From Chloroflexota bacterium (GTDB lineage Bacteria; Chloroflexota; Anaerolineae; UBA4142): DNA of 37,062 nt. A program made the translations under genes and the position numbers. The first letter of the stretch is position 1; each line of letters begins with the position of its first letter. The notes beneath the pieces are model-generated. The model did no database searches. It was not told the origin of the DNA and worked only from the letters and a program-made list of their open reading frames with translations. Location: assembly GCA_016219275.1 (NCBI GenBank), contig JACRBM010000084.1:1-37062 (forward strand), read 5' to 3'. Below are positions 28,839 through 33,322 of the stretch, piece by piece.

Positions 28839-28870
28839 ACGAGGTCGGAATCATCCGACCTCGTTTTTTT
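28839..28870 (+). terminator. Second terminator in tandem
   Basis: ACGAGGTCGGA (28839-28849), loop ATCA, TCCGACCTCGT (28854-28864), then a T-run to 28870. It is a textbook rho-independent terminator on the plus strand; its T-run overlaps the stop codon of the minus-strand gene. Confidence 0.9.
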
Positions 28871-29849
28871 ATTGTGCGCCAGTTCGCGCGTAATGAATCA
28901 CGTCCGATGACTCGTCGCGCCGGATGCGCCCCGCGCTTTCGAGAATGTCGAGATGTCCGATGATTTCGGATAGACCCAGGAAAATGTCGAACGATTTCAA
29001 ATCGGGAAAGAGCAGGTTACACAATTCCCAGCCAGTCTGCGCGCAACACTCGATTTGCGCTTCGATGTGATCGAGCCGCGCGCGATGGAACGCGAGCCGC
29101 GCTGCGACGAGCGCGCCAATATCGTACACCGGTTCACCGTGCGAAGGGAGCGCGATCCGCACGTCGAGCCGCGCGACCTTTTGCATCGAAGCGACATAAT
29201 CAGCAAGCGCGCGCGGGCGTTCCGTCTCGCCGCGTGCCGGCGGTTCGAGCACCGGATTCGACGTAATGTCGCGCAAGATGTGATCGCTCGATAGCAATGT
29301 GCGCGAGGCGGATTCGTAGAGACAAATCAAGCCGCTGGCGTGCCCCGGCGCGAACACGACGCGCCACGTGTCGCGTCCCAGGGTTAGCGTGTCGCCGTCG
29401 TCGAGCGCGACGAATTCTTCGGTGGGAATCGTGTCCGCGTGTTGCGCGAGGCGACGCATGCCTGTCGCGACGCGTTCCGCCAATTCGCGCGGCGCGCCGT
29501 GCCGTGTGAAGGTGTCGCAGTAAAAATCGTACCGCCGTTCCCACTCGCGCGCGGAATCGGTAAGCCACCAGCGATTGCGCGCGTGCGCGTACACGCGCGC
29601 GCCGGACTCGGCGACGATCTGCCCGGCGAGTCCAAAGTGATCCACGTGCGCGTGCGTGACGATCACGCGGCGAATATCTTTGAACGCGAATCCATGCGCG
29701 GCAAGTTGCTCGCGGAGCGCGATAATCGTCGGCGCGTCTTTTGGTCCGGTGTCAATCAACGTGAGTTCGTCGTCCTCGACGAGAAAGACGTTGATCGGAC
29801 CGACCGGGTATGGCGTAGGAAGAATGAGCGGGTGAAGATAATCGAGAAT
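28869..29849 (-). CDS. Metallo-beta-lactamase-fold hydrolase (possible ATT start)
   Basis: A protein of about 326 residues with the zinc-binding THAHVDHFG motif (His66, His68, Asp70, His71 counted from the proposed start), then APGHASG (His170), LLSSDH (Asp189) and the late His in LPSHGEP: all ligands for two metals. A C-terminal helical domain follows, as in glyoxalase II-like and LACTB2-like enzymes; substrate unknown. The conserved start (LILPTPYPVGPINVFLVEDD) has no ATG, GTG or TTG nearby. ATT at 29849, with AGAGG 5 bases upstream and 8 bases after the transporter stop, is the best fit. The alternative, GTG at 29927, lacks a ribosome site and overlaps the transporter by 70 bases. Confidence 0.85.
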   Translation of the reverse strand: MLDYLHPLILPTPYPVGPINVFLVEDDELTLIDTGPKDAPTIIALREQLAAHGFAFKDIRRVIVTHAHVDHFGLAGQIVAESGARVYAHARNRWWLTDSAREWERRYDFYCDTFTRHGAPRELAERVATGMRRLAQHADTIPTEEFVALDDGDTLTLGRDTWRVVFAPGHASGLICLYESASRTLLSSDHILRDITSNPVLEPPARGETERPRALADYVASMQKVARLDVRIALPSHGEPVYDIGALVAARLAFHRARLDHIEAQIECCAQTGWELCNLLFPDLKSFDIFLGLSEIIGHLDILESAGRIRRDESSDVIHYARTGAQ

Positions 29850-29857
29850 GGGTGCCT

Positions 29858-31105
29858 CTAGAATCCCAGCGCCGTGCTGACCAACAACACAATCGTCGCG
29901 GCGATGACGATGAGGGCGGTACCCCACCCGATAATATTCGCCAGACGCGAGTTGGCATACTTGCCCATCAAACGTTTGATATTCGCAAGTCGGAGCATCA
30001 AGACCAAAATCACCGGCAACAGAATGCCATTGACTGTTTGCGACGCGAGCAGCAAAGTAATGAGCGGCACATCGGGAATTAGCGCGACCGCCGCGCCGAT
30101 CACGATCATGCCGGTGTAGAGTCCGTAGAAAACCGGCGCATCTTCCCAGGTTTGATTTACGCCGCGCTCCCAGCCGAACGCCTCGCAGACCGCGTACGCG
30201 GTCGAAAGCGGCAAGATGCTCGCGGCAAGTAATGACGCGCCGAGTAAGCCGAGCGCGAACATCTCGCCGGCAAGTTCGCCAGCAATCGGCACGAGCGCCG
30301 CGGCGGCTTGCGCGGCAGAATCAATCACGCGATTGCCGCTGACGTACAACGTCGCGCCGGTTGCCACGATCATAAAGAACGAAAAGAAATCGGTGACCAA
30401 CGCGCCGAACAATACGTCCGCGCGCGCGTACGCATATTCCTCGACCTTAAGCCCCTTGTCCACAATCGAACCTTGCAGGTAAAATTGCATCCACGGTGTA
30501 ATTGTCGTGCCGACGGTCGCGATGAAGAGCAGGAAGAATTTCGTTTCGGGCACGATGGTCGGTGTGACCAATCCGCGCGCGACATCCCCCCAGTCTGGCT
30601 TGGCGAGAAATCCAGCAAACACGTACGCGATGAACACGAGCGAGAGCGCGAGGAAAATTTTTTCCGCGCGTTTGTAATTGCCGCGCACGACGATGAACCA
30701 CACGAACAACGCCGACAGCAGTACCGCGATCCATTTGGGGATGCCGAGCAGTTCGCTCGCCGCGGCGATGCCGGCGAATTCCGCGATCGTCGTCGCGACA
30801 TTCGCGACGAGTAGTGTTAGCATCGCAAATGCAGTCGTCTTGACGCCGAACTCTTCGCGAATCAAATCGCTCAAGCCCTTGCCCGTGACGACGCCCATGC
30901 GCGCGATCATTTCCTGCACAACCGCGAGCGAGATCGTGATGAGCAGGAGAATCCAGAGCATCTGATAGCCGTACGCCGCGCCGACCGTCGCGTACGTTGC
31001 GATGCCGCCCGCGTCGTTGTCGGCGGTCGAAGTGACCAAGCCCGGTCCCATGATCGCGAGGAACGCCAAAAACTTTTTGTTGGGGATCCGTTTCCAGAAT
31101 TTCAT
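29858..31105 (-). CDS. Nramp (SLC11)-like divalent metal transporter, atypical metal site
   Basis: A 415-residue protein with about eleven membrane helices of the Nramp fold. In helix 1 the canonical DPGN metal motif reads DAGG (STADNDAGGIATYATVGA). The helix 6 region reads VGTTITPWMQFYLQGSIV, without the canonical Met-Pro-His pattern. Loss of these residues argues against ordinary Mn/Fe transport; Nramp-related magnesium transporters also deviate here, but I cannot confirm that group from memory. ATG at 31105 is chosen because it overlaps the upstream stop as ATGA; an ATG at 31135 is also possible. Coupling to an MgtE_N/CBS protein supports a magnesium-related role. Confidence 0.87.
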   Translation of the reverse strand: MKFWKRIPNKKFLAFLAIMGPGLVTSTADNDAGGIATYATVGAAYGYQMLWILLLITISLAVVQEMIARMGVVTGKGLSDLIREEFGVKTTAFAMLTLLVANVATTIAEFAGIAAASELLGIPKWIAVLLSALFVWFIVVRGNYKRAEKIFLALSLVFIAYVFAGFLAKPDWGDVARGLVTPTIVPETKFFLLFIATVGTTITPWMQFYLQGSIVDKGLKVEEYAYARADVLFGALVTDFFSFFMIVATGATLYVSGNRVIDSAAQAAAALVPIAGELAGEMFALGLLGASLLAASILPLSTAYAVCEAFGWERGVNQTWEDAPVFYGLYTGMIVIGAAVALIPDVPLITLLLASQTVNGILLPVILVLMLRLANIKRLMGKYANSRLANIIGWGTALIVIAATIVLLVSTALGF

Positions 31106-32361
31106 TTGAACAGCCGCGGTAATTTGATTTTCCATTCGCTCGGCAGAATCATTTGAAGCGCGTCTTCCGCCGTGACGATTCCCTGCAAGCGATTATCCGC
31201 GTCCACGACTGGCAGCGCGAGCAAGTTATACCGCGTCATCGCTTCGAGCACTTCGGACGGCGCGGTATCGAGTTGCATCCGAATGGGGCGGCGGTGCATA
31301 ATATCGTCCACGCGTTGCTCCGGCGGTGTGAGCACGAGATCGCTCAACGAAAAAACACCCAGCAAATGTTCTTCGACGTCTACGACATAGACATAGTAAA
31401 TTGTTTCGGCTTCCTTTGCCGCGGCGATCTCGCGCAAATGTTGCAATGCCTGGGCGACGGTGATCCCGGGCGGCACGGTGACGTACTTGGTCGTCATGAG
31501 ACCGCCGGCGGTGTTTTCGGGGTGCGCGAGCAATTCCTTGACCTCGGCTTTTTCGTCCGGCTCCATCAAGTTCAACACTTGTTCGCGGCGATCCTCTTCC
31601 ATCTCTTGCAACACGTCCGCCGCCGCGTCCGGCTCCATCTCTTCGACAATGTCCGCCGCGCGTTCGTTCGTAAATGTTTCGAGCACCTCGGCTTGGAACT
31701 CGGGTTCGAGTTCTTCCATCACGTCCGCGACTTTTTCGTCGGACAGATCGCGCATCACCGCGCCCGCGTCGCGCGGACGCATGTCCTCCAAAATTTCCGC
31801 GATATCTGCCGCGTGCAGTTCTTTGAGTTTGGTGCGCGCCACGCGCACTTGGAGATCGCCGCGCGGAATGAAACCCAGGTCGGTCCACGCGATCGCGCGC
31901 GAGGGCAGTTCGCGGCGAACGAGTCCGACGACGCGTTCGGAAAGGTCTTCCCAACCGAGCCGGCGCAAAAGCCCGCGTCCGCCCACGTCCACATTGACCA
32001 AGCGATAATCGTTGCCGATGCGCGCGAGTTCGAGATCATTGACACGCACGACGCGAAAGCCGTTCGTGTCAATCACTTGCTTGTCGAGGACGTCGCGGTT
32101 GAGGTAAACTTCGGTGCCTTTCGGAGTGTACGACATGGAGGGAGGTTTTTGCAGAATAATTTTACTTCCCGCGAGGTCTTCCGCGCCTTCCCAGGGTAAC
32201 AAGGACGGCTCGCCGCCGTTGCGTTTGACCGCCAGCGCGACGACGCGCGGGTACGGTTCGTTCTCGTTGTCGGGTCCGATGAGCAAATCGTTGAGCACGC
32301 CGATCAGCGTGCCTTTCGTATCGCGCACCTCGCGTCCGATGAGTTCGCTCAGGTATGCCAT
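31102..32361 (-). CDS. PRC-barrel/MgtE_N/CBS protein without the MgtE membrane domain
   Basis: A 419-residue soluble protein. Two PRC-barrel-like units (about 1-75, YLSELIGREVRDTKGTLIGV; and about 90-150, VLDKQVIDTNGFRVVRVND) precede an MgtE N-terminal superhelix of short repeats (LHAADIAEILEDM, ADVMEELEPE, ERAADIVEEMEP, AADVLQEME) and two CBS motifs (about 290-345 and 350-410). In MgtE these parts sense Mg and gate the channel, but the membrane channel domain is missing here: the protein ends at LPSEWKIKLPRLFK. The ATGA overlap with the Nramp-like gene suggests it gates that transporter instead. ATG 32361 has GGCGGTGG upstream. Confidence 0.9.
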   Translation of the reverse strand: MAYLSELIGREVRDTKGTLIGVLNDLLIGPDNENEPYPRVVALAVKRNGGEPSLLPWEGAEDLAGSKIILQKPPSMSYTPKGTEVYLNRDVLDKQVIDTNGFRVVRVNDLELARIGNDYRLVNVDVGGRGLLRRLGWEDLSERVVGLVRRELPSRAIAWTDLGFIPRGDLQVRVARTKLKELHAADIAEILEDMRPRDAGAVMRDLSDEKVADVMEELEPEFQAEVLETFTNERAADIVEEMEPDAAADVLQEMEEDRREQVLNLMEPDEKAEVKELLAHPENTAGGLMTTKYVTVPPGITVAQALQHLREIAAAKEAETIYYVYVVDVEEHLLGVFSLSDLVLTPPEQRVDDIMHRRPIRMQLDTAPSEVLEAMTRYNLLALPVVDADNRLQGIVTAEDALQMILPSEWKIKLPRLFK

Positions 32362-32460: not shown

Positions 32461-32499
32461 AAAAGAAAAACCCGAAGGGTCGGAGTGACCCTTCGGGTT
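32461..32499 (-). terminator. Terminator of the reductase gene
   Basis: AACCCGAAGGGTC (32469-32481) and GACCCTTCGGGTT (32487-32499), 13-bp perfect stem, followed on the minus strand by TTTCTTTTG. Confidence 0.88.
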
Positions 32500-32530
32500 T
32501 GGCGAAAAAACCTTGCGAAGGTTGCCTGGA

Positions 32531-33322
32531 TCAGATATTGTCTTCGCCGCCGTCTACGCGGATGACGGTGCCGGTCATCCATTGGATGCGCGGGTCCATC
32601 AACGCGACGAGTGTTTGCGCGACATCTTCGGGTTGGGTCATTCGTCCGTCGGGATGCAGTCGCATGATGTGCTGTTTCACTTGATCGTGTCCGGGAATCA
32701 TGCGGAATGCGGGCGTATCGGTGACGCCGGCTTGGAACGTGTTCACGCTGATGCCGCGCGGCGCAAGTTCGAGCGCGAGTTGGCGCGTGTGCGATTCGAG
32801 CGCGGCTTTTGCCGCCGAGACCGGACCGTAGCCGGAAATTACACGATGCGAACCGGAACTCGTCATCGAAAAAACTTTCGATCCTTTGCCGAGCAAGCCC
32901 GCGCGCACCAGGTCTTGCGTCCAGTAGACGAGCGAGTTCGCCATCACGTCGAGCGTCATCTCCATCGCTTTGCGATCCACCGCGTCGTCCGGCTTGTCGG
33001 CGATGTACGGTTTCAGGTTGCCGAACGCGACCGAATGCAGGACGCATTCAATCGAACCGCCGCCCACGCTGGCAAAGTACTCTTTGATCTTTGCAATGAT
33101 CTCGGCGCGATTGCGATCATCGGCGATGTTCTTGTTGAAGAACATTGCCGTGCGCCCTTTCGCTTCGATGTCGGCTTTTACCTGCAACGCGCGCGGTAGC
33201 GTCGTCTTGAGATCAAAGTGCGCGCCGAAAATGTTGAACCCGGCTTCGGCAAGCGCGCGCGAACATGCCGCGCCAAACCCGCTCGATGCGCCGAGAATGA
33301 GTGCCCATCGTTCTTGTGCCAT
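32531..33322 (-). CDS. SDR-family reductase, FabL/FabI-like enoyl-ACP reductase
   Basis: A 263-residue short-chain dehydrogenase. The cofactor site is LILGASSGFGAACSRALAEA (9-28). The catalytic Tyr165 and Lys172 are separated by six residues (YGPVSAAK), the spacing typical of enoyl-ACP reductases (FabI, FabL), whereas ordinary short-chain dehydrogenases have three. The TSSGSHRV segment before it and GVTDTPAF after it recall FabL of Bacillus. It would catalyse the last reduction of fatty-acid elongation. The C-terminus ends MTGTVIRVDGGEDNI, normal for the superfamily. GGGAGG lies 5-6 bases before the ATG. It has its own terminator. Confidence 0.82.
   Translation of the reverse strand: MAQERWALILGASSGFGAACSRALAEAGFNIFGAHFDLKTTLPRALQVKADIEAKGRTAMFFNKNIADDRNRAEIIAKIKEYFASVGGGSIECVLHSVAFGNLKPYIADKPDDAVDRKAMEMTLDVMANSLVYWTQDLVRAGLLGKGSKVFSMTSSGSHRVISGYGPVSAAKAALESHTRQLALELAPRGISVNTFQAGVTDTPAFRMIPGHDQVKQHIMRLHPDGRMTQPEDVAQTLVALMDPRIQWMTGTVIRVDGGEDNI

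Follow-up and report, generated by a model that had tools for sequence, protein, structure and literature searches.

SLC11 transporters are generally regarded as lone carriers. Members of the NRMT type carry a signature of DxxG in helix 1 and TxxA/T in helix 6, as given in the available sections of PMC8806188, and Shin et al. (2014) reported that most NrmT genes have a neighbor homologous to MgtE's cytoplasmic portion, and speculated on feedback (PMC4072509). According to the accessible portions of the latter paper, the Acidobacterium NrmT is mainly a Mn transporter, the partial MgtE gene brought no gain in rescue by this NrmT in a single co-expression test, and the C. acetobutylicum NrmTs are functional without a partner gene (PMC4072509).

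Here, we analyze a pair of this kind in the window, a 37,062-nucleotide stretch of DNA from a Chloroflexota bacterium (contig JACRBM010000084.1). A sequence-only reading of the window had put forward both the pairing and the idea that the cytosolic protein may gate the transporter; both have been in print since 2014, in the consulted text of PMC4072509, and the mechanism offered is therefore a published hypothesis. New here are the wide distribution of the sensor, its PRC-barrel front part, and its tail, basic in place of the acidic plug of the channel. On balance, we consider it probable that the transporter is an NRMT with the upstream protein as its cytosolic Mg2+-sensing regulatory subunit.

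Results

The transporter groups with the NRMTs

The features of the transporter gene are as follows.

29858..31105, minus strand: coding sequence of an NRMT-type SLC11 transporter, 415 aa (Pfam, best solved structure, tree)
31004..31015, minus strand: helix-1 site DAGG, the DxxG of NRMTs (sequence, alignment)
30491..30508, minus strand: helix-6 site TTITPW, the TxxA/T of NRMTs (sequence, alignment)
31102..31105, minus strand: ATGA, the transporter start lying over the regulator stop (sequence)

The protein matches Pfam Nramp (PF01566) with 326.5 bits, and among solved structures EleNRMT (7QIA) scores highest, with 393 bits, the next solved Nramp reaching 116 bits. In a 62-row tree it falls inside a 56-row group with EleNRMT (support 97/96), and DraNramp, BfraNramp and L001, the genome's MntH-type copy, stand apart from this group (100/100). 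The phylogeny thus sets the transporter with EleNRMT and not inside the Mn/Fe Nramps, and, together with the best solved structure, supports the earlier proposal of a cytosolic MgtE-type sensor that lacks a channel and is tied to a transporter of the SLC11 fold, here an NRMT. Two further rows, L067 and L071, with DPSG and TTISPY, lie just outside the NRMT group, at a point that carries a long-branch warning; they represent a second divergent Nramp relative, encoded next to the pair but on the other strand (L067:4028-5395 and L071:4125-5489).

The metal site had been described as altered, and it does have DAGG and no Met-Pro-His in helix 6, but these residues are the ordinary NRMT signature: the window has DAGG and TTITPW, EleNRMT has DAGG and TTIAPW, and L001 has DPGN and ATVMPH. 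That the site is novel or altered and serves a new substrate, as its departure from the DPGN and MPH of Mn/Fe Nramps might suggest, has a negligible probability, given that DxxG-TxxA/T is the published NRMT signature and that EleNRMT shares DAGG and carries TTIAPW (PMC8806188, as far as the available text goes). Judged from its sequence, the window transporter is an NRMT with a normal NRMT metal site, and its predicted function is very likely Mg2+ import. The overlap of the regulator stop with the transporter start, also noted earlier, is found as ATGA at 31105..31102, and therefore the transporter likely starts at 31105 (MKFWKR..., 415 aa) rather than at 31135, the longer open reading frame from there being unneeded.

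The regulator combines a PRC-barrel front part with an MgtE-type sensor

The protein encoded directly upstream of the transporter, referred to here as the regulator, has the following parts.

31102..32361, minus strand: regulator coding sequence, 419 aa, with PRC-barrel, MgtE_N, two CBS domains and a short basic tail (Pfam, NCBIfam, sequence, model)
32143..32358, minus strand: first PRC-barrel unit, aa 2-73 (Pfam PF05239, 46.8 bits)
31972..32109, minus strand: second PRC-like unit, aa 85-130 (weak Pfam match, model strands, conservation)
31513..31818, minus strand: MgtE_N domain with D213, D245 and D249, the counterparts of MgtE E59, D91 and D95 (Pfam, alignment)
31147..31509, minus strand: two CBS domains, aa 285-405, with D400 (= D247), N379 (= D226) and Q403 (= D250) (Pfam, alignment)
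31105..31152, minus strand: basic C-terminal tail, aa 404-419, replacing the acidic plug helix of MgtE (alignment, charge counts)

Pfam scores are 46.8 bits for PRC, 95.4 bits for MgtE_N and 72.6 bits for CBS, and Pfam detects no MgtE membrane domain (PF01769) in the protein; the NCBIfam mgtE model is matched over positions 19-251 of 450, with a score of 192.7 that lies under its cut-off of 232.75. The protein is thus, as first described, an MgtE_N plus CBS protein from which the membrane domain is missing, and the PRC-barrel units noted at its front are also present, the first clear and the second weak by sequence (E = 0.0067, under the Pfam cut-off) and visible in the model as a second small strand unit. 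Within the front part, conservation is highest in this second unit (D93, Q95, D98, R106, N108 and D109), and in the conservation counts some of its residues rank among the most conserved in the regulator overall. Compared by sequence with solved structures, the PRC part has no significant relative, and a search of the open-licence literature returned no paper linking a PRC-barrel to MgtE plus CBS, to Nramp or to a magnesium transporter. In a model of the regulator by itself (mean pLDDT 88.6, pTM 0.62), the MgtE part aligns with 2YVY, a cytosolic structure with Mg2+ bound, at a TM score of 0.85 by target length. The regulator most likely resembles the sensor of MgtE in its working, yet it is no member of the MgtE channels because the membrane domain is absent.

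Most acidic sensor residues are retained, and the output element differs

Residues were counted in 136 standalone regulators and 18 channel-fused copies, taking the site residues of Thermus MgtE from PMC5882242 and those of its ATP site from PMC5529423, in each case from the parts of the paper available. Among the standalone regulators, the counterparts of D91, D95 and D247 are Asp in 126/136, 133/136 and 128/136, respectively, and those of E59 and D250 are Asp or Glu in 131/136 and 121/136. At the position of D226, Asn occupies 100 and Asp 24 of the 136 standalone copies, compared with Asp in 15 of the 18 channel-fused copies. The window regulator keeps the acids of Mg4, Mg6 and Mg7 and has N379 and Q403 as its Mg5 pair. 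Of the two ATP-site residues, Y170 is kept in 122/136 standalone copies, and F227 is Leu in 122/136 of these and in 18/18 of the channel-fused copies.

The two classes end differently. The channel-fused copies run on into the acidic plug helix, with a net charge over 18 residues that is negative in 18/18 (median −5); the standalone copies close with a tail of median 16 residues, the net charge of which is positive in 124/136 (median +4) and which contains Trp in 88/136. The E258 and D259 of Mg2 and Mg3 are missing from the regulator because it has no acidic plug helix.

Genome and locus context connect the pair with magnesium

The window genome (97.9% complete) encodes one CorA, two Nramps and one MgtE_N protein, which is the regulator. 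No MgtE membrane domain (PF01769) is found across this genome at that completeness, and therefore no channel is left in it for the sensor to serve. On the same strand, the pair is flanked by a metallo-beta-lactamase-fold gene (28869-29850) and an SDR (enoyl reductase-like) gene (32531-33322), both of which recur at L125, L149 and L253. One feature lies in the upstream spacer, and a second GC-rich hairpin (window 32410-32390) occurs just ahead of the regulator start.

32468..32500, minus strand: terminator-like hairpin in the spacer that separates the regulator from the SDR gene upstream of it (sequence scan)

A Mg riboswitch often accompanies NRMT genes without defining them, and an M-box riboswitch stands upstream of the unit in 7 of the 76 loci scanned (out of 80 selected by their transporter). 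Its carriers include L094, the closest transporter relative in the scan (80% identity), and the syntenic L125, which shares the gene order of the window (SDR gene, regulator, transporter, metallo-beta-lactamase-fold gene) and has its M-box in the spacer whose window counterpart has none. No M-box was detected in the window, including the spacer upstream of the regulator, or in 18 further related loci (a set that also held one CorA locus), and the riboswitch scans of the 76 and 18 loci found no other metal riboswitch.

These elements bear on whether the NRMT could be mainly a Mn2+ importer in vivo, with an MgtE-like partner that responds to Mn2+, a view that Shin et al. put forward for Acidobacterium capsulatum. 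The published complementation with the Acidobacterium member (PMC4072509) and the use of Mn2+ first in the transport assay of EleNRMT (PMC8806188), both cited from partial texts, lend this some weight, but the genome already has a canonical DPGN and ATVMPH Nramp in L001, M-boxes, which are of the Mg type, are the sole metal riboswitches among the 76 scanned NRMT loci, and both L094, a close relative, and L125, which is syntenic, have one. We regard a primary role in Mn2+ import as unlikely.

The regulator-transporter pair is widespread

The distribution of the pair was assessed in 80 named loci, spread over archaea and many bacterial phyla, that were selected by the transporter alone. In 67/80, the gene immediately upstream, on the strand of the transporter, encodes a complete PRC+MgtE_N+CBS protein (63 standalone and 4 channel-fused). 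In the other 13, the regulator is further away (4 loci) or cut by the contig end (2), a PRC-only protein is present (2), no regulator is found although sequence is present (3), too little sequence is available (1), or there is a doubtful single frame (1, L103). At L141:2700-3302 and L150:2736-3353, the NRMT is preceded by a PRC-only protein of ~200 aa. The frame at L103:1-2250 (750 aa) was considered as a natural fusion of regulator and transporter and is doubtful, its junction containing a stretch of the sensor's end duplicated out of frame, such that it may be an assembly error or a real fusion; further fusions hinted at by equal open-frame lengths were rejected, as the DNA shows in-frame neighbors with a stop codon between them. 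These apparent fusions are left out of the evidence.

In a sample of 301 genomes from the phylum of the window, with a strong NRMT match defined as 277 bits or more, a regulator match occurs in 103 of the 105 genomes that have such a match, among the matches listed. On the same basis, the regulator is within 1.5 kb of 80/121 NRMT genes and directly upstream of 72/121, and no regulator match lies within 1.5 kb for 41/121. Across 140 distinct pairs, a set biased in that many loci were fetched with the regulator as the query, the PRC part is present in 138, the other two being cut by the contig start, and 36/140 overlap in the ATGA manner (ATGA, GTGA or TTGA) as the window pair does.

One alternative is that the MgtE_N-CBS protein senses Mg2+, or acts as a chaperone, separately from the transporter, sharing its expression but having another target, with the PRC barrel binding some other partner. 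It would account for the 29 of 99 full-length regulator matches listed that have no strong NRMT (277 bits or more) within 1.5 kb, and it accords with the co-expression without effect in the available account of PMC4072509. However, 17 of these 29 sit in genomes that have a strong NRMT match at another locus (among the matches listed), some of the others adjoin a weaker or cut NRMT gene (for example L051, L054 and L076), the paired genes overlap or lie close together, and the window genome has no MgtE channel; a separate sensor is thus unlikely. Much less probable still is that the regulator is a decayed MgtE, a remnant of a lost channel. The membrane domain is indeed missing from both the protein and the genome, but the invariant residues, the conservation across many phyla, the recurrence of tail and operon position, and the predominance of standalone copies in the sensor tree all argue against decay.

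A tethered model is consistent with contact between the proteins

To our reading, the two proteins would also be in physical contact, a prediction examined with AlphaFold2 on a related pair in tethered form, the L245 regulator and transporter, joined by stop-codon readthrough into 863 residues. The model has a mean pLDDT of 90.1 and a pTM of 0.75, with low confidence over the linker (~417-454), and its transporter part matches EleNRMT with a TM score of 0.96 by target length. By our own estimate, freely placed halves would give a pTM of roughly 0.5-0.6, and the relative placement therefore looks fairly definite. The model speaks for the predicted contact and gives it moderate support, short of being decisive. 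Covariation between regulator and transporter was not usefully above that of shuffled alignments (best z 6.23 versus shuffle maxima of 5.01-6.06; 131 rows, Meff ~70).

The sensor has been exchanged with MgtE channels

The operon at L094:154-4751 consists of an M-box, a full PRC-MgtE channel, a standalone regulator and an NRMT, and the channel-fused and standalone sensors are 74% identical. In a 64-row sensor tree, this channel copy branches with its own standalone neighbor (100/95), inside the standalone rows, and the other 17 channel-fused copies form a separate group (99/85). It follows that fusion of such a sensor to a channel, or its separation from one, has occurred at least twice, and that the sensor type also serves a channel. 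In the L094 channel copy, Ser takes the place of D226 and His that of D247. At L106, L122, L132 and L097, a full-length PRC-MgtE channel lies directly upstream of the NRMT in place of the standalone sensor, with an M-box in L106, L122 and L132.

Discussion

In the mechanism that we propose, the NRMT would import Mg2+, probably with some tolerance of Mn2+, and the regulator would act as an MgtE-type Mg2+ sensor, presumably dimeric like that of MgtE. High cytosolic Mg2+ would close the regulator into a compact form through its retained acidic sites (of the Mg4, Mg6 and Mg7 type), and the compact regulator would hold the NRMT in a non-transporting state. The output may pass through the short tail with its basic charge, probably together with the PRC-barrel front part, taken here as a docking piece, with no insertion of an acidic plug. 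We infer the contact, the dimer, the direction of the effect and the role of the PRC part; the identities of the genes, their association, the retained sensor residues and the different output element are observed.

More tentatively, and with slightly less than an even chance of being correct, PRC+MgtE_N+CBS may be a portable Mg2+ sensor that serves two unrelated membrane proteins, closing the pore by an acidic plug when fused to the channel and gating an SLC11 carrier when present as a separate, basic-tailed subunit. If so, we know of no earlier SLC11 transporter that has a regulatory subunit of its own for ligand sensing. With a conserved and separable sensor of Mg2+, the SLC11 family would gain allosteric feedback, and one sensor module would be seen to pass between channel and carrier. 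What the MgtE-like neighbor does, a question raised in 2014, can now be addressed through named parts: D213, D245, D249 and D400, together with the basic tail and the PRC front.

Comparison with known systems

The closest described systems are the NRMTs (Shin et al. 2014, PMC4072509; EleNRMT 7QIA, Ramanadane et al. 2022, PMC8806188), which the window matches in fold, tree group, DxxG-TxxA/T and the adjoining MgtE-N gene; it differs in that the window has no M-box and in the PRC-barrel front part of the neighbor, which goes unmentioned in the available parts of PMC4072509 and PMC8806188. The MgtE channel (Thermus thermophilus 2YVX/2ZY9; PMC5882242 and PMC5529423, as far as available) shares with the regulator MgtE_N plus CBS and acids of Mg4, Mg6 and Mg7 that are mostly retained, whereas the regulator has no channel domain and no acidic plug helix, carries mostly Asn in place of Asp226, and has the extra PRC-barrel part. 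The PRC-MgtE full-length channels (among L035-L049; L052, L094, L106, L122 and L132) have the same PRC+MgtE_N+CBS front part, and some of them adjoin an NRMT, but, unlike the regulator, they carry a fused MgtE membrane domain and the acidic plug.
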